A stretch of 64,000 nucleotides of DNA, taken from assembly GCA_016125355.1 (NCBI GenBank), contig WGLX01000037.1:1-64000 (forward strand), read 5' to 3'. Below are positions 50,730-63,115 of this stretch, in pieces. Origin of the DNA: Actinomycetales bacterium. Its GTDB lineage: Bacteria; Actinomycetota; Actinomycetes; S36-B12. The translations under genes and the position numbers were made by a program. The stretch's first letter is position 1. Every line of letters begins with the position of its first letter. Below the pieces are notes generated by a model. That model was not told the origin of the DNA. It made no database searches and saw only the letters and a list, made by a program, of their open reading frames with translations.

Positions 50730-52472
50730 TCAGTCGTCGTCGCGGGAGCCGTTGACGGCCGGAGTGGTCTGCTTGACCTGGAGCAGGAACTCGTTGTTGC
50801 TCTGGGTCTCGCGGAGCTTGTTCAGCAGCAACTCGATCGACTGCTGCTGGTCGAGGGCGTGGAGGACCCGGCGCAGCTTCCAGACGATCTTGAGCTCCTC
50901 GTTCGACATGAGCAGCTCCTCCTTGCGGGTTCCGGACGCGTCGACGTCCACCGCCGGGAAGATGCGCTTGTCAGCGAGTCGCCGGTCGAGCTTGAGCTCC
51001 ATGTTCCCGGTGCCCTTGAACTCCTCGAAGATGACCTCGTCCATGCGCGATCCGGTCTCGACGAGAGCGGTCGCGAGGATCGTGAGCGAGCCACCGTGCT
51101 CGATGTTGCGGGCCGCACCGAAGAACTTCTTCGGCGGGTAGAGGGCCGTGGAGTCGACGCCGCCCGACAGGATGCGGCCGGAGGCCGGTGCCGCCAGGTT
51201 GTAGGCGCGCCCGAGGCGGGTCATGGAGTCGAGCAGGACGACGACATCGTGGCCGAGCTCGACGAGGCGCTTGGCCCGCTCGATCGACAGCTCCGCGATG
51301 ATCGTGTGGTCCTCGGCGGGCCGGTCGAAGGTCGAGGCGATGACCTCACCCTTCACCGACCGCTGCATGTCGGTGACCTCCTCGGGGCGCTCGTCCACGA
51401 GGACGACCATGAGGTGCACCTCGGGATTGTTCGTCGTGATCGCGTTGGCGATGGCCTGAAGCACCATGGTCTTGCCGGCCTTCGGCGGAGACACGATCAG
51501 GCCGCGCTGGCCCTTGCCGATCGGCGCCACCAGGTCGATGACGCGGGTGGTGAGGTTCGCCGGCACGGTCTCCAGGCGGAGGCGGTCCTGCGGGTAGAGC
51601 GGGGTGAGCTTGGAGAACTCCTTGCGGTCGCGAGCGGCCTCCAGGGTGCCGCCGTTGACGGTGTCGATCCGCACCAGCGGGGTGAACTTCTCCTTGCGCT
51701 CACCCTCCTTCGGCTGCTTCGTGGCGCCGGTGATGGCGTCGCCCTTGCGCAGTCCGTTCTTGCGGACCATCGACAAGGAGACGTACACGTCGTTCGGGCC
51801 CGGCAGGTAGCCGCTGGTCCGCACGAAGGCGTAGTTGTCCATGACGTCGAGGATGCCCGCGACCGGGACGACGACGTCGTCCTCGCCGATCTCCACGTCG
51901 ACGTCGCTGTACTGGCCGCCCCGCTGGCGGTCGCGACGGTCGCGGAAGCGATCCCGGCCCCGGCGGCGCCGGCTGCGGCTTCCGCCGCCCTCCTCGCCGT
52001 CACGGTCGCGGTCCCGGTTCTGGTCGCGGTCCCGGTTCTGGTCCCGGTTCTGGTCGCGGTTCTGGTTCTGGTCGCGGTCGCGGTTCTGGTTGCGGTCGCC
52101 GCGGTCTCGGCTCTGGTCGCGGTCCCGGTTCTGGCTCCGGTCGGCGGTGTCGCCGCCGGCGCTGGCCGACTCCCCGGCCGCGGTGTCACCACCCTTGGCT
52201 GCCTCAGCCGGAGCCTGCTCGCGGCGGGCGGACCGGCGGGCACGGGGTGCCGACTCCTCCGACCTCTCGGTCGCGGGCGCCGACTCGGCGCCCTGCGGTC
52301 GGGCCGGCGGACGCTGGCGGTCACGGATCGCCGCGACCAGGTCTGCCTTCTTCATGCTGCTCGCGCCGGAGATGCCCATCTGCTGGGCCAACTGCTTGAG
52401 CTCGGGCAGGAGCATCCCGGACAGGCCTGAGGCCTTGGTCGACGTGGACTCCTGCACTTGTGCTTCTGTCAC
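50730..52472 (-). CDS. rho: Transcription termination factor Rho with Arg/Asn/Asp-rich insert
   Basis: The hexameric RNA helicase that terminates transcription, 580 residues. The order is a Rho_N (SAP-like) helical domain (about 15-55, LPELKQLAQQMGI), a low-complexity insert (about 60-190), the RNA-binding cold-shock domain (DVMDNYAFVRTSGYLPGPNDV) and the RecA motor with Walker A SPPKAGKTMV, the Q-loop and arginine finger region. The insert contains about 45 residues of Asn/Arg/Asp/Gln repeats (near 111-155) followed by Arg-rich sequence. Actinobacterial Rhos commonly carry such disordered RNA-binding inserts. The start is GTG after AAAGGA. A long leader precedes it. Confidence 0.96.
   Translation of the reverse strand: MTEAQVQESTSTKASGLSGMLLPELKQLAQQMGISGASSMKKADLVAAIRDRQRPPARPQGAESAPATERSEESAPRARRSARREQAPAEAAKGGDTAAGESASAGGDTADRSQNRDRDQSRDRGDRNQNRDRDQNQNRDQNRDQNRDRDQNRDRDRDGEEGGGSRSRRRRGRDRFRDRRDRQRGGQYSDVDVEIGEDDVVVPVAGILDVMDNYAFVRTSGYLPGPNDVYVSLSMVRKNGLRKGDAITGATKQPKEGERKEKFTPLVRIDTVNGGTLEAARDRKEFSKLTPLYPQDRLRLETVPANLTTRVIDLVAPIGKGQRGLIVSPPKAGKTMVLQAIANAITTNNPEVHLMVVLVDERPEEVTDMQRSVKGEVIASTFDRPAEDHTIIAELSIERAKRLVELGHDVVVLLDSMTRLGRAYNLAAPASGRILSGGVDSTALYPPKKFFGAARNIEHGGSLTILATALVETGSRMDEVIFEEFKGTGNMELKLDRRLADKRIFPAVDVDASGTRKEELLMSNEELKIVWKLRRVLHALDQQQSIELLLNKLRETQSNNEFLLQVKQTTPAVNGSRDDD
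52008..52140 (-). repeat. Low-complexity tandem repeats inside rho
   Basis: Degenerate units of 6-12 bp (CGGTTCTGGTCG-like on the plus strand) coding for Asn-Arg-Asp and Gln-Asn-Arg motifs in the disordered insert of Rho. The region is prone to slippage, so its length is likely to differ between strains. Confidence 0.75.
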
Positions 52473-56943: not shown

Positions 56944-58359
56944 TCAGGCGCCGGGGTCGAGCCGGAGCAGATCGTCCAGCGTCTCGCGGCGCAGGAACAC
57001 GGTGGTCGCGCCGTCCCGGGCGGCCACGACGGCGGGCCGCGGGAGGTAGTTGTAGTTCGACGCCATGGAGCGGCAGTAGGCCCCCGTCGCCGCGACCGCC
57101 AGCAGGTCACCCGGCACGAGGTCGCCCGGCAGCCAGGCATCGCGCACGACGATGTCGCCCGACTCGCAGTGCTTGCCGACCACGCGGCACAGCATCGGCT
57201 CGGCCGACGACTCCCGAGAGGCCAGCACCACGGTGTACTCAGCGTCGTAGAGCGCTGTGCGGATGTTGTCGCTCATCCCGCCGTCGACGGAGACGTAGGT
57301 GCGCACGACCCCGCGATCAAGCTCGACCGGCTTGACGGTGCCCACCTCATACAGCGTCACGGCCGCCGGGCCGACGATCGCCCGCCCAGGTTCGAAGGCG
57401 AGCGCCGGCATGGGGATGCCCTCGTTCGCGCACTGCTTGCCGACGATGTCACCGATCTGCGAGGCCATGTCGATGACATCGAGCGGGTCGTCCGTCTCCA
57501 GATACGCGATGCCCATGCCGCCGCCGAGGTTGAGCTCCTCGACCTCGATGCCCTGCTCATCCCAGATCCGCTGCGCGACCGACACCACGCGGGCGGCGGC
57601 AACCTCGAACCCGGATGCGTCGAAGATCTGTGAGCCGATGTGCGAGTGCAGGCCGCGGAAGTCCAGGCTCGGCAGCTTCGCCACCCGACGCACTGCCTCG
57701 TCGGCGGCACCGGACGTCACCGACAGGCCGAACTTCTGGTCCTCGTGCGCCGTCGCGATGAACTCGTGGGTGTGCGCCTCGACGCCGACGGTGACCCGCA
57801 CCAGCACGGGCTGCACCACCCCGGCCCGGACGGCTGCATCGGCGATCCGCACGATGTCCTCGAACGAGTCGACGACGATCCGACCCACCCGGGCCTCGAC
57901 GGCGGCCTCGATCTCCGCCAGCGACTTGTTGTTGCCGTGCATCAGGATGCGCTCGCCGGGCACCCCGGCTCGGAGGGCGACAGCGAGCTCGCCGCCAGAG
58001 GCGACGTCGATGCCGAGCCCCTCGTCCGTGACGATCCGTGCCACGCTCGTCGTCAGGAACGCCTTGGCGGCGTAGTAGACCAGCCGGGCCCCGACGCCGA
58101 CGTACGCCTCGCGGTAGCGGCGGGCGCGCGTCCGCAGGTCGTCCTCGTCGAACAGGAACAACGGCGAGCCGAACTCGGCCACCGCGTCGCGGACGTCGAT
58201 GCCGCCGATCTCGATGGCGCCGTCGGCGTTCCGTCGCGCCGACGACGGCCAGACGCCCGGAGCCAGCACGTTCATCGCCGCGACGGACTCAGGCCGCGAC
58301 GCCGCCTCGTGGGCCATCAGCCCATCGGCGTGGAGGGGTCCGGCCGGGTGCGCGCGCAT
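56944..58359 (-). CDS. lysA: Diaminopimelate decarboxylase
   Basis: The last step of lysine synthesis, meso-DAP to lysine (PLP fold type III). It is 471 residues. The PLP lysine is in VYYAAKAFL, the substrate Cys in GKHCESGDI, and GLHSHIGSQIFDASGFE, EPGRAIVGPA and VDGGMSDNIRTALY are all conserved. The start at 58359 (MRAHPAGPLHADG) is supported by TAGCCT seven bases upstream. In M. tuberculosis lysA is adjacent to argS and thrA; here a secreted protein with a TetR gene and an aquaporin gene have separated them. Confidence 0.97.
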   Translation of the reverse strand: MRAHPAGPLHADGLMAHEAASRPESVAAMNVLAPGVWPSSARRNADGAIEIGGIDVRDAVAEFGSPLFLFDEDDLRTRARRYREAYVGVGARLVYYAAKAFLTTSVARIVTDEGLGIDVASGGELAVALRAGVPGERILMHGNNKSLAEIEAAVEARVGRIVVDSFEDIVRIADAAVRAGVVQPVLVRVTVGVEAHTHEFIATAHEDQKFGLSVTSGAADEAVRRVAKLPSLDFRGLHSHIGSQIFDASGFEVAAARVVSVAQRIWDEQGIEVEELNLGGGMGIAYLETDDPLDVIDMASQIGDIVGKQCANEGIPMPALAFEPGRAIVGPAAVTLYEVGTVKPVELDRGVVRTYVSVDGGMSDNIRTALYDAEYTVVLASRESSAEPMLCRVVGKHCESGDIVVRDAWLPGDLVPGDLLAVAATGAYCRSMASNYNYLPRPAVVAARDGATTVFLRRETLDDLLRLDPGA

Positions 58360-58366
58360 GCGCCAC

Positions 58367-58372
58367 AGGCTA
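58367..58372 (-). promoter_or_regulatory. Candidate -10 box (TAGCCT) for lysA
   Basis: On the minus strand TAGCCT ends seven bases before the lysA ATG with no Shine-Dalgarno, consistent with leaderless transcription. There is no clear -35. Confidence 0.4.
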
Positions 58373-58401
58373 GGGCACCCAGCCGGAAGGGGTGGACTCG
58401 C

Positions 58402-60750
58402 TCAGCGGGGGAAGCGGACGGTCACCACCACTCGACGGGCCTCGGCCACGTTCTTCACCTTCACCGGTCGCGTCCGAATGGACACGGTGCCCGGAAGCCC
58501 GGCGGCCTTCAGGTACCGCGCGACGTTGGACGCCCGCGTGCGGGCCAGCGCGCGATCACCTCGACGAGGATTCTGCGCCTGCACGATCCCGACGACCACC
58601 GAGGATGCCGTGGCGTCGGCCGGGACCTGGACCGCGAGGGACCGCAGGGTGCGCTTGGCCTTCGCGGTGAGCTTCGCCGACCGGTAGGGGAAGTACACGC
58701 GGCTGCCTACGGACGTAGTCACGGTCGCCGGCCTGACCACCTCGATGCCCAGCGACACGCTGCGCACCTCGTTGCCTGTCGTGTACCCGTTGACCTGGGC
58801 GACATGGGCACCGAGCGAGATGCCGGGAGGAAGGTCGACCGTCCCCGAGAACGATCCCGAGGCATCCGTCGTCAGCTCCCCCAGGAAGGTCGCGTCGGAG
58901 AACAGGAACAGTTGGACCGGGCTGTTCGGCTTGAAACCGACGCCCTCCGTCGCAAGGCGTTGGCCTGGAATGAACCGCAGGACGCCGTTGGGCCCCAGCG
59001 GAGCCGGCTGGCCGGCCGGAGTGCGCGCGGCCAGCGACAGCCGCCAGCCCGCAGCCGACACGTCAATCCCCGTGTTCTGTCCATTGGGGGCCGCCACGAC
59101 GGGCACCACGACTCCCCCGACCGTCGCTCGGTCGGCGCCCGGGACGAGTCCGCCGGGCACCGGCTCGGCGCCCAGGCTCGGAACCGACGGGGTCGCCGTT
59201 GGCGATGGCTCCGGTGTCGACCCACCGGACGACGAGCCGCCGCCACCCCCACCGCCACTGGACGAGGCAGCTGTCCCCGCCACTGTCGCGCTGCCATCGA
59301 CATATCCCGTGCGAGTCGCAGCCACCGTCACCGTCGCCGACGCACCAGCGGCAAGCCCCGACACCGTCAGCGGGAGCGTGCTGCCCGAAGCCGTGCCGGC
59401 CGCCACGGACCCCGAGTCCACCGACGGCGTCCACGTCCAGCTCGCGTCATAGTTCGTCACGTTCACGGTGAACCCGTCCGCTGTCGACACCGGCGACGAG
59501 AACGTCGGCGTGCGCGCGGCGGACAGAGCCGATCCGTTGACAGTCGCGCTGCCGTCCACGTATCCCGAGCGAGTCGCGTCCACCGTCACGGTCGCTGACG
59601 CGCCCGGTGCAAGGCCGGTCACCGTCAGCGGGAGCGTGCTGCCCGAAGCCGTGCCGGCCGCCACGGACCCCGAGCCCACTGACGGCGTCCACGTCCAGTT
59701 CGCGTCATAGTTCGTGACGTTCACGGTGAAGCCTTCCGCCGTCGACACCGGCGACGAGAACGTCGGTGTGCGGGCTGGCTGAGTGACCGCTCCGGTGAGT
59801 CCCAGAGAGTAGGTGATCGGCGACTCGGTGATCGTGAGCGTCGCACTGAGAGGAGTGGAGCTTGAGGGAGTCCAGGAAAGCTCCATGGTGCAGGTGCTCC
59901 CGGCTGTGAGCGAGGCATTTGCGCAGCCGCTCGTCCGGTTGACGTTTCCTGATCCCGTGGACACCGTGTTGATGTAGAAGGACGCCGTCGTCGCAGTGTT
60001 CTTGACGTAGACCGTCTTGGACGACGGAGTCCCACTGGGTGTGCTTGGGAAGGCGACGGTCGAGACAGCCGACCACGGACTCAGGGTCTCACTGAACTCC
60101 AGTGGACCGCCCGTCCACTCGGCATAGAGCGTGGTGTCCTCGTTGATCGCGAAAGTACCCCCGGGGGCGCGGGGCGTACCTGTGCCGTTCGCTGCGGTGT
60201 TCCAGCGACGGAACAGATAGCCGGTTCGTGCAAGACTCCCGGTGTTTCCCAGCACTGTGACGGTTGAGTCCGCTGAGTACGGGCTACTGGGGTCGCTCGG
60301 CACGGACCCGCTGGTTGCGTTGTTCGCGTCATAAGTGACGGTATAGGAGGGGGCGGCGACCGTCAGAGTTCGAGTTTCGGCCAAGAAAGGCGAGCCAACG
60401 ACAGTGTCGCCATCGAACATCGCAGCGGCAAGCGTGTACTCGCCTGGCGACTCGAAGAGGTAGTCGTAGGACAGGTCGACCGGGGACGTGTCGGTCCACC
60501 AGTGTCTCACGATGGTGCCATCAACGCTGAGCGCCAAAGTGATGCCGGCGGGGTGCTCACCAGGAGTGAAGTACGCCTTCGCGTACAACTCGATCGTGTC
60601 GCCCGCGTTAGCGGTTGCGGGCGGGTTGAAGTCGATCTGATCGGCGGCCCCTGCGGCGGGCGAGGCCATGCCGACTGCACCCATCGCCAGTGACACCGCC
60701 GCCAGCACCGCCGATGCGACCATCACTCGCGTTCTCGTTCCGGTGGCCAT
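58402..60750 (-). CDS. Secreted multi-repeat protein with C-terminal OmpA-like domain
   Basis: A 782-residue exported protein, probably wall-associated. A signal peptide (about 1-36, cut near SPAAGA) is followed by an Ig-like part and an InlB B-repeat (about 135-215, with YTVTYDANNATSGSVPSD, RRWNTAANGTGT and TLYAEWTGG). Next come a beta domain with TAGSTCTMELSWTP, two near-identical 86-residue repeats (327-412 and 413-about 495), a Gly/Ser/Pro linker, a beta domain, and a C-terminal OmpA_C-like domain (about 676-782, YFPYRSAKLTAKAKRTLRSL). The start follows GGGGAGGATGCG. Adhesion or peptidoglycan binding is inferred. No LPXTG or membrane anchor is seen. Confidence 0.75.
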   Translation of the reverse strand: MATGTRTRVMVASAVLAAVSLAMGAVGMASPAAGAADQIDFNPPATANAGDTIELYAKAYFTPGEHPAGITLALSVDGTIVRHWWTDTSPVDLSYDYLFESPGEYTLAAAMFDGDTVVGSPFLAETRTLTVAAPSYTVTYDANNATSGSVPSDPSSPYSADSTVTVLGNTGSLARTGYLFRRWNTAANGTGTPRAPGGTFAINEDTTLYAEWTGGPLEFSETLSPWSAVSTVAFPSTPSGTPSSKTVYVKNTATTASFYINTVSTGSGNVNRTSGCANASLTAGSTCTMELSWTPSSSTPLSATLTITESPITYSLGLTGAVTQPARTPTFSSPVSTAEGFTVNVTNYDANWTWTPSVGSGSVAAGTASGSTLPLTVTGLAPGASATVTVDATRSGYVDGSATVNGSALSAARTPTFSSPVSTADGFTVNVTNYDASWTWTPSVDSGSVAAGTASGSTLPLTVSGLAAGASATVTVAATRTGYVDGSATVAGTAASSSGGGGGGGSSSGGSTPEPSPTATPSVPSLGAEPVPGGLVPGADRATVGGVVVPVVAAPNGQNTGIDVSAAGWRLSLAARTPAGQPAPLGPNGVLRFIPGQRLATEGVGFKPNSPVQLFLFSDATFLGELTTDASGSFSGTVDLPPGISLGAHVAQVNGYTTGNEVRSVSLGIEVVRPATVTTSVGSRVYFPYRSAKLTAKAKRTLRSLAVQVPADATASSVVVGIVQAQNPRRGDRALARTRASNVARYLKAAGLPGTVSIRTRPVKVKNVAEARRVVVTVRFPR
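59257..59772 (-). repeat. 258-bp tandem duplication within the OmpA-like gene
   Basis: Copy A (59515-59772) and copy B (59257-59514) encode units that each begin RTPTFSSPVSTA and differ at about a dozen residues. The period is exactly 258 bp (86 codons). The high similarity points to a recent duplication or ongoing conversion, and copy number may vary between strains. Confidence 0.85.
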
Positions 60751-60788
60751 CGCATCCTCCCCTGTGCGTCCAGATGAAATGACGTTAT

Positions 60789-60811
60789 CCTCATTTTTGA
60801 GGCTTTCCTCA
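60789..60811. promoter_or_regulatory. Three alternating CCTCA/TGAGG half-sites, candidate TetR operator
   Basis: CCTCA (60789), TGAGG (60798) and CCTCA (60807) follow each other at 9-bp steps with four-base T-rich spacers. They form two overlapping palindromes in the 103-bp region between the divergent OmpA-like and TetR genes. The position suits a site where the TetR protein controls both. On the minus strand it abuts GATAAC, a possible -10 for the OmpA-like gene. Confidence 0.5.
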
Positions 60812-60853
60812 GGACTAAAGTCCCCACCGGAGGGAAGGAGGTCACGTCGGACA

Positions 60854-61456
60854 ATGACGCCCAAACCGATCCGCGTCAGCACGCGCGACGCACTCCTCGC
60901 CGGCGCCCAGGCGGTGCTCGCTGAGCACGGCCCTTGGGCACCCATCAGCGACATCACCGACCGTGCCGGTGTCTCCGTCGGATCCTTCTACAACCACTTC
61001 GAGAGCAAGGACGAGCTCTTCCGAGCAGCTGCCCAGTCAGCCCTGGCCGAGTGGGAGGACTACATGATCCGGCGGACAGCTGCCCTGGATGACCCGGACG
61101 AACGGCTCTGCGCGCGCATCCGCCTTATGGGCCGGATGAGCGACATCCGTCCGGACATCGCGCACATCATCGTGAACTCCGGGCCCCGCCTGCTGGCCAT
61201 GCCGCCCGGGTACAGCGAACGGGCCGTGCCCGACCTCGAGGACACAGGCGACGGGGAAGACGCGGACCCCGGCCTTCGGCTGATGGTGGTCGTCGCCGCC
61301 GGCGAGAAGCTGCTCGCCCTGCGCCTTCAGGACCCCAGCATCCCGGCCGAGCGGGCGGACGAACTCGCGGAGACACTCATGGCCTTCCTGGGAACCGACT
61401 GCGCCGAGGCACGACGCCTCTCGCGACTCCCCCTGCCGCCGGAACCCGCAACTTGA
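60854..61456 (+). CDS. TetR-family transcriptional regulator
   Basis: A 200-residue repressor-type regulator. The N-terminal helix-turn-helix is typical (RDALLAGAQAVLAEHG, then ISDITDRAGVSVGSFYNHFESKDELF), and the C-terminal ligand domain is unassigned. The ATG at 60854 lies 13 bases from the nearest AGGAGG, an unusually long spacing, so the start is not certain. It is divergent from the OmpA-like gene with a candidate operator between them, and ends directly against the argS stop with no spacer. It probably represses its neighbour and itself. Confidence 0.85.
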   Translation: MTPKPIRVSTRDALLAGAQAVLAEHGPWAPISDITDRAGVSVGSFYNHFESKDELFRAAAQSALAEWEDYMIRRTAALDDPDERLCARIRLMGRMSDIRPDIAHIIVNSGPRLLAMPPGYSERAVPDLEDTGDGEDADPGLRLMVVVAAGEKLLALRLQDPSIPAERADELAETLMAFLGTDCAEARRLSRLPLPPEPAT

Positions 61457-63115
61457 CTACATGCGCTCGGGCGCGCTGACACCGAGCAGGTCAAGCCCGT
61501 TCGCGATCGTCTGCCGTGACGCGGCACACAGCCACAGCCGGGCGATGTGCAGGGGCGCGAGCTCCTCGTCGCCGCGCGGCAGCACCCAGCACACGTCGTA
61601 GAACCGGTGATAGGCCGTGGCCAGGTCCTCGAGGTACCGGGCCACGCGGTGCGGCTCGCGCAGTTCGGCGGCGGAGGCCACGACTCTCGGGAACTCGCCG
61701 ATCATGCCGAGCAGGTTGTTCTCCCGCTCATGGTCAAGCAGCGACGGGTCGAACTCCGCGCCCTCCCAGTCGATGCCGAGCTCGGCCGCGTTGCGCAGCA
61801 CCGATGAGATCCGCGCGTGCGCGTACTGCACGTAGAACACCGGGTTGTCGTTGGTCGCGCGGACCATGTCCTCGAGGTCGAGCGTCAGCGGCGAGTCGGC
61901 CGGGTAGCGCGACAGCGTGTAGCGCGCGGCGTCGACGCCGACCTCCTCGACCAGGTCGTCAAGCGTGACGATCGTCCCGGCCCGCTTGGAGAGCTTGACC
62001 TCCTCGCCACCGCGGGTGATCTTCACCAGCTGGCCGATGAGCACCTCGACGTTGGCATCCATGTCGTCACCGGCGCAGGCGGCGACCGCGCGGAGCCGGT
62101 TGACGTAGCCGTGATGGTCGGCTCCGAGCAGGTAGATGCTGAGGTCGAAGCCCCGGGCACGCTTGTCGACGTAGTACGCGGTGTCGGACGCGAAGTACGT
62201 GTACTCGCCGTCGGCCTTGACGAGGACCCGATCCTTGTCGTCCCCGAAGTCGGTCGTGCGCAGCCAGACCGCGCCCTCCTGCTCGAACACGTGCCCCTGC
62301 TCCCGCAGCTTGGCCATCCCGCGTTCGACCGCACCCGACTCGTGCAGGGACCGCTCGGAGAACCAGACGTCGAAAACCGTCCGGAACAGCCCCAGCACCT
62401 GCTTCTGCTGGGTGAGCTGCAGCGCATAGCCGGCCTCCCGGAAGGCGACGAGCTGCTTGTCCTCGGGCAGCGAGGTGATGTCGGGCCGCGCCGCGACGAT
62501 CGCGGCGGCCAGATCGAGGATGTAGCCACCGTGGTAGCCGTCCTCGGGCACCGGTCGGCCGTTCGCGGCCGCCATCAGGGACGCCCCGAACTTGTCCATC
62601 TGCACGCCGCGGTCGTTGATGTAGAACTCGCGGGTGACGTCGGCGCCGGCCGCCTCGAGCACCCGGGCGATCGCGTCGCCCACCGCTGCCCACCGGGTGT
62701 GGCCGAGGTGGATGGGGCCGGTGGGGTTCGCGGAGATGAACTCGACATTCACGGTCAGACCGGACAGTGCGTCACTGTGGCCCCACGAGTTACCTGCCGT
62801 CACAGCCGTCCGGGCGAGCTCCCCCTGCGCCGCGCTCTCAAGGCGGATGTTGACGAATCCCGGCCCTGCCACCTCGGCGCTGGCCACGCCCGGCGTCTCC
62901 TCCAGATGCCGCGCCACGAGGACGGCGAGGTCGCGTGGGGCCATGCCCGCCGGCTTGGCGAGTGCCAGTGCGATGTTCGTGGCGTAGTCCCCGTGCTCGC
63001 GCGACTTCGGGCGGTCGAAGCGGACCTCGGGAGCGTCCACGGGCGGGATGGCCCCCTCGGAGACAAGGGTCGCGATGATGTCCGTGACGGTGTCGGCGAG
63101 CTGGTCAGGTGTCAC
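61457..63115 (-). CDS. argS: Arginyl-tRNA synthetase
   Basis: Charges tRNA-Arg; class I synthetase of 552 residues. The N-terminal ArgS-specific domain (to about 110) precedes NPTGPIHLGHTRWAAVGDA with the HIGH-type HLGH, and the KMSKS-equivalent KLSKRAG is present. The C-terminal anticodon-binding DALR region ends with ANGLDLLGVSAPERM. The GTG start has a TAGGCT box six bases upstream (leaderless). It is convergent with tetR with no intergenic base. Confidence 0.97.
   Translation of the reverse strand: MTPDQLADTVTDIIATLVSEGAIPPVDAPEVRFDRPKSREHGDYATNIALALAKPAGMAPRDLAVLVARHLEETPGVASAEVAGPGFVNIRLESAAQGELARTAVTAGNSWGHSDALSGLTVNVEFISANPTGPIHLGHTRWAAVGDAIARVLEAAGADVTREFYINDRGVQMDKFGASLMAAANGRPVPEDGYHGGYILDLAAAIVAARPDITSLPEDKQLVAFREAGYALQLTQQKQVLGLFRTVFDVWFSERSLHESGAVERGMAKLREQGHVFEQEGAVWLRTTDFGDDKDRVLVKADGEYTYFASDTAYYVDKRARGFDLSIYLLGADHHGYVNRLRAVAACAGDDMDANVEVLIGQLVKITRGGEEVKLSKRAGTIVTLDDLVEEVGVDAARYTLSRYPADSPLTLDLEDMVRATNDNPVFYVQYAHARISSVLRNAAELGIDWEGAEFDPSLLDHERENNLLGMIGEFPRVVASAAELREPHRVARYLEDLATAYHRFYDVCWVLPRGDEELAPLHIARLWLCAASRQTIANGLDLLGVSAPERM

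Follow-up and report, generated by a model that had tools for sequence, protein, structure and literature searches.

A RolR-related TetR gene and a divergent surface-protein gene at a probable insertion site between argS and lysA in an actinobacterium

The locus

The stretch of DNA analysed here (the window), from an uncultured actinobacterium of freshwater type, comprises 64 000 nucleotides of contig WGLX01000037.1 and contains, between the housekeeping genes lysA and argS, a gene for a modular secreted protein and a divergently oriented gene for a TetR-family regulator. The features of this region, with the evidence on which each was called, are the following.

56944-58359, minus strand: lysA, with a probable start at 58359 (MRAHPAGP..., kept in relatives; locus comparison)
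58360-58401, minus strand: left edge of the proposed insert, a conserved, -10-like CCCTAGCCT motif directly upstream of the lysA start, as in empty sites (locus comparison)
58402-60750, minus strand: gene for a secreted modular surface protein of 782 aa (translation, Pfam domains)
58405-58695, minus strand: divergent OmpA-like C-terminal domain, in which GIVQ replaces GHTD and the Arg of the RA pair is kept (Pfam, alignment, profile match)
58756-58983, minus strand: Ig-like region before the C-terminal domain (weak NCBIfam GxPGS match; common to genus paralogues)
59170-59259, minus strand: linker rich in Gly/Ser and then in Pro/Thr (sequence)
59260-59775, minus strand: two tandem 86-aa repeats with a 258-bp unit (sequence comparison of the copies)
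59821-60087, minus strand: ASH or choice-of-anchor-D type domain, PF15780, residues 222-310 (31.2 bits, cut-off 27)
60121-60345, minus strand: InlB B-repeat (Listeria-Bacteroides repeat), PF09479, residues 136-210 (37.6 bits, cut-off 27)
60643-60750, minus strand: predicted Sec signal peptide, MATGTRTRVMVASAVLAAVSLAMG...AGA-AD (read from the sequence)
60780-60793, no strand: predicted operator palindrome 1, TGACGTTATCCTCA (pattern scans, homologue comparison)
60798-60811, no strand: predicted operator palindrome 2, TGAGGCTTTCCTCA (pattern scans, homologue comparison)
60854-61456, plus strand: gene for a RolR-like TetR-family repressor of 200 aa, TetR_N plus TetR_C_40 (open reading frame, Pfam, structure match)
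61457-63115, minus strand: argS, whose stop codon abuts that of the TetR gene, the right edge of the proposed insert (sequence, locus comparison)

Architecture of the surface protein

The initial annotation of this DNA had correctly placed the surface-protein frame on the minus strand with its end at 58402, but had begun it at 60957, which makes it too long. The likely start is the ATG at 60750, which is preceded by GGGGAGGATGCG and opens into the signal peptide; with this correction the starts of the surface-protein and TetR genes lie 103 bp apart. The InlB B-repeat named in the same annotation scores above the Pfam cut-off, and a weak NCBIfam choice_anch_D match coincides with the ASH domain. 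The same query gave no further match to the surface protein within its own 3.34-Mb genome.

The 258-bp tandem repeat, previously described as a fresh duplication, does exist, but it is old: its two copies share 221 of 258 nucleotides (86%) and 75 of 86 amino acids. A recent tandem duplication was rejected because the copies are not near-identical, with 18 differences in synonymous codons, next to 19 in non-synonymous ones. Two further repeat-rich frames were observed: the 86-aa repeat type recurs many times in a 4451-aa open frame of another genome (G036:C3, ~101598-108980), and within the window a short-period tandem repeat with 18/24-bp units (GGTCGCGGT...) lies inside an open frame at 51999-52148.

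The C-terminal domain alone reaches 26.7 bits against PF00691, just below the Pfam cut-off of 27.2. A profile built with nine relatives nevertheless matches the solved domains of PA0833, YfiB, Pal and Rv0899, the best at 1.5e-13 and the others more weakly, which bears out the OmpA-like C-terminus that had been proposed. In OmpA and Pal, the conserved Asp of the GHTD motif is implicated in peptidoglycan binding. This residue is absent from the window domain, which reads GIVQ. As in the window, VQ or a similar pair takes the place of the canonical TD of GHTD in most genus paralogues, while GHTD or GFTD is retained in the OmpA-like domains of G181 and G647. The Arg of the LSxxRA motif is kept (LARTRA), R80 and A81 being invariant in the alignment. 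Wall binding by this domain is possible from its sequence, but because GIVQ stands in the GHTD position it should not be assumed, and the wall-binding role ascribed to the protein at the outset is unsupported, the alternative role in adhesion being hypothetical. A single-sequence structure model of residues 590-782 had a mean pLDDT of 55.

The TetR-family regulator and its relatives

The divergent TetR gene, on the plus strand and ending at 61456 as first annotated, encodes an N-terminal TetR_N helix-turn-helix (45.4 bits, cut-off 24), which places the product in the TetR family, and a C-terminal TetR_C_40 domain (28.6 bits, cut-off 27), which makes it RolR-like. Its closest full-length solved relative is RolR (3aqs/3aqt; E 1.3e-9, residues 7-196). 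The aromatic-catabolism operon that lies divergent to a RolR-type gene is replaced here by the surface protein, and the window TetR is classed as related to RolR rather than as RolR itself.

In a class-wide search, most TetR homologues over threshold were divergent to a gene for a VOC-type dioxygenase, with hydroxylase and hydrolase genes further on wherever the loci were annotated. The highest single identity to the window TetR, 39%, belongs to a TetR from a Streptomyces plasmid whose neighbour is catabolic; all plasmid relatives are distant, at less than 60% identity, and no close copy is present in any other genus member. The tree separates the window TetR from the catabolic clade (22 rows, 100/99) and places it within a 12-row group (90/84) of weak internal order, its own placement in this group being weak at 81/69.

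The neighbours of 21 members of the TetR group were classified by hand from their contigs. Fourteen members have, in divergent orientation, a gene for a secreted protein of repeat or collagen-like type (the window, G013 twice, G011, G015, G018, G429, G348, G609, G181, G647, G618, G676 and G600); a secreted gene is adjacent in another orientation in four (G031, G059, G576, G678), and the remaining three (G488, G581, G088), of which one lies at the end of its contig, have no secreted neighbour. The builds of the targets vary, from InlB/ASH/repeat/OmpA through propeller/Fn3/OmpA and RCC1/Fn3 to collagen-like, and an OmpA-like C-terminus occurs in five of the 14 (the window, G013:C149, G181, G647, G618). 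The G181 protein, from another family of the class, combines Fn3, an InlB B-repeat and OmpA in one chain, like the window protein. The count of 14 of 21 rests on hand reading of the loci because a crude automatic secretion scan was too permissive in controls: it called none of 37 catabolic-group neighbours secreted, but 17 of 29 neighbours of unrelated control TetRs, mostly one orthologous substrate-binding lipoprotein counted repeatedly. The pairing of TetR and surface protein first noted in the window thus reaches further, related TetRs apparently guarding surface proteins in other families. That a TetR group would guard varied surface proteins while its relatives are catabolic repressors is the more interesting result of the comparison.

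Other TetR arrangements were seen in the same material. Double-length proteins made of two fused TetR units are encoded in G013 (L066:8187-9554, with two TetR_N domains and beside tandem operators) and, as judged by eye, in G018 (L067:8163-9353); a double TetR already known is Mce3R (PDB 9b7y). In L024, L027, L031, L129, L130, L131 and L138-L142, a distinct TetR gene recurs in divergent orientation to one for a substrate-binding lipoprotein, and several of these loci carry TGAAT-N4-ATTCA palindromes between the two genes.

The predicted operator

The 103-bp intergenic region contains two 14-bp palindromes at an 18-bp pitch, separated by a 4-bp spacer. The initial annotation had recognized half-sites in the shared control region, but counted three, at 60789-60811; the first had been missed, and four alternating half-sites (TGACG/CCTCA/TGAGG/CCTCA) are present at 60780-60811. 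The pattern TGAS-N6-STCA-N4-TGAS-N6-STCA has a single exact match in the 3.34-Mb genome, at these positions, and shuffled versions of the window never reached as many matches to the tandem palindrome pattern.

Upstream motifs were counted, with shuffled controls, for eight surface-linked TetRs, 23 catabolic or other homologues and 36 unrelated TetRs. TGA-N8-TCA was found upstream of 20 of the 23 catabolic or other homologues, 4/8 surface-linked and 8/36 unrelated TetRs, and the longer TGA-N8-TCA-N4-TGA upstream of 11/23, 4/8 and 1/36, respectively. The full tandem TGA-N8-TC-N5-TGA-N8-TC was present in half of the surface-linked set (4/8), in 7/23 catabolic or other homologues and in none of the 36 unrelated TetRs, against shuffle means of 0.00-0.03. 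The catabolic homologues carry TGAYGAAATCRTCA-like or TGA[CT]GAAATC[GA]TCA-like palindromes, and that upstream of the Prescottella equi plasmid homologue, TGACGTTATCGTCA, is one base off the palindrome of the window. Tandem palindromes are common to four genus loci, the window, G013:C149, G013:C121 and G011:C549, and in the last three they likewise sit in intergenic regions between divergent TetR and secreted-protein genes. Comparison thus gives good grounds for regarding 60780-60811 as the operator of the window TetR, and the earlier assignment of the shared region to TetR binding is borne out, as a prediction, by comparative footprinting in homologues. The TGAC palindrome code is not universal in the TetR group, because roughly half of the surface-linked members that were checked (the GRK-type subclade and others) lack it; G181 and G647 have a different inverted repeat of the ATAAAAGAAT type. 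In the subclade with the GRK N-terminus, an inverted repeat ATAAAAGAAT...ATTCTTTTAT is seen at ~6250-6275 of L298 and in the control region of L314. A literature search for the catabolic consensus operator string TGACGAAATCGTCA did not find it.

These observations bear on the reading that a catabolic-type regulator landed by chance beside the surface-protein gene and acts on distant targets or only on itself, the surface protein being a passenger. The control of dioxygenase operons by the nearest broad relatives and the catabolic neighbour of the top identity match would fit such an origin; nevertheless, with the window TetR outside the catabolic clade, two thirds of its group (14/21) divergent from secreted proteins, intergenic operators in three further pairs of this kind and no second exact operator in the genome, we consider a chance association unlikely.

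Insertion between argS and lysA

The nearest named records to the window argS are uncultured Actinomycetes, several of which are labelled Candidatus Nanopelagicales. The comparison of the lysA-argS interval in relatives that had been suggested at the outset shows that a short spacing is ancestral: the gap, measured to the second lysA start, is no longer than 185 bp in 71 of the 78 named actinobacterial loci with both genes, and the pair does split a conserved order, as had been claimed. Seven species of the genus have an empty site, in which a short spacer separates the argS stop from a conserved CCTAGCCT-like motif that lies just ahead of the lysA start; in the window, the CCTAGCCT motif lies undamaged beyond the surface gene. 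Five other species carry unrelated cargo at the same point (L095, L096, L100, L099, L098), namely DUF1778/GNAT-like, AbrB/RelE-like or HicAB-like pairs or a lipoprotein, as named by eye, and in G007 other genes follow argS up to the end of the contig, which stops before lysA.

Empty sites in relatives together with intact junctions support the interpretation that the TetR/surface pair was inserted, at a point where insertions recur, with both neighbours left whole, and the acquisition proposed in the initial annotation agrees with this picture. Signs of a mobile element were sought: the window contains no tRNA, and terminal repeats were not seen at the insert. The GC3 of the inserted pair is mildly lower than that of lysA and argS (0.81-0.84 versus ~0.92), which is weak evidence for a foreign base composition.

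The pair could instead be ancestral in the genus and have been lost in most species. The presence in G013 of a similar TetR/OmpA-like pair, albeit at another locus (L062), and the incompleteness of the metagenome-assembled genomes would leave some room for such losses. The short gap across actinobacteria and in seven genus members, the argS stop leading directly to the lysA promoter motif in those seven, the unrelated cargo at the exact same point in five species and the lack of close TetR copies in the genus make this decidedly unlikely.

Proposed mechanism

In the reading that we favour, to which we assign a probability of about 0.6, the insert is a self-contained module in which the RolR-like TetR represses both itself and the divergent surface protein until a ligand releases it. 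Two TetR dimers would sit on the two palindromes at 60780-60811 and, once bound, would close both divergent promoters in the shared region. No match to a sigma-70 consensus promoter was found, so that exactly how operator and promoters overlap is a matter of inference. A small molecule, possibly aromatic as for the catabolic relatives, would then release TetR from the DNA, and the surface protein, once derepressed, would be exported and displayed. The aromatic nature of the ligand is a guess from kinship with RolR. The operator and the divergent spacing of 103 bp lead us to infer that the pair is tightly repressed. In streptomycetes, a divergent gene at a distance of under 200 bp was repressed by its TetR in five of five tested cases (PMC3511530). 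Activation or dual regulation of the surface gene by TetR is very unlikely, since, although some TetR-family proteins such as AtrA are activators (PMC3511530), the spacing in the window is within the range below 200 bp where the tested regulators repressed.

Significance

Uncultured aquatic actinobacteria commonly have large, repeat-rich surface proteins, and little is known of how these are switched. In the present case, sequence alone suffices to read off a regulator subfamily, the operator predicted for it and the targets that have been swapped, and the switch as well as its ligand thereby become directly testable. The comparison suggests the recruitment of a catabolic type of repressor to the control of surface proteins, its DNA code being partly unaltered. 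A broader proposal, which is tentative and may well prove wrong, is that a TetR clade derived from or sister to aromatic-catabolism repressors, keeping part of their DNA code, has become specialized in the switching of modular surface proteins in several families of actinobacteria; the cell surface would then change with dissolved aromatics, such as those of plant or humic origin, the surface modules being swapped while repressor and promoter region are retained.

Comparison with known systems

The window protein shares PF09479 in a secreted protein with the InlB B-repeat surface proteins, but Pfam found no leucine-rich internalin part in it and its sequence shows no LPXTG anchor. Its C-terminal domain is matched by domain profile (2lbt, E 2.6e-11) to the actinobacterial OmpA-like domain of Rv0899 (OmpATb, ArfA) from Mycobacterium tuberculosis, to which it adds InlB, ASH and repeat modules, and in which GIVQ replaces GHTD.

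In Staphylococcus, IcaR is a TetR-family repressor divergent from a surface or adhesion function, icaADBC. The likeness to the window pair is in outline; icaADBC makes a polysaccharide, whereas the proposed target in the window is a protein. Further counterparts are the actinobacterial TetR/VOC-dioxygenase/hydroxylase operons, such as that of the Prescottella equi plasmid (PVAPB1533), in which the TetR is ~32-40% identical to that of the window and the divergent layout and the type of 14-bp palindrome are the same; they differ in having an enzyme operon as target and in their palindromes, which are mostly ~43-56 bp apart, in contrast to the 18-bp tandem of the window. RolR itself, the resorcinol repressor of Corynebacterium glutamicum, matches the window TetR over its full length with the same combination of TetR_N and TetR_C_40, but guards an aromatic-catabolism operon, whereas the window TetR would guard a surface protein.
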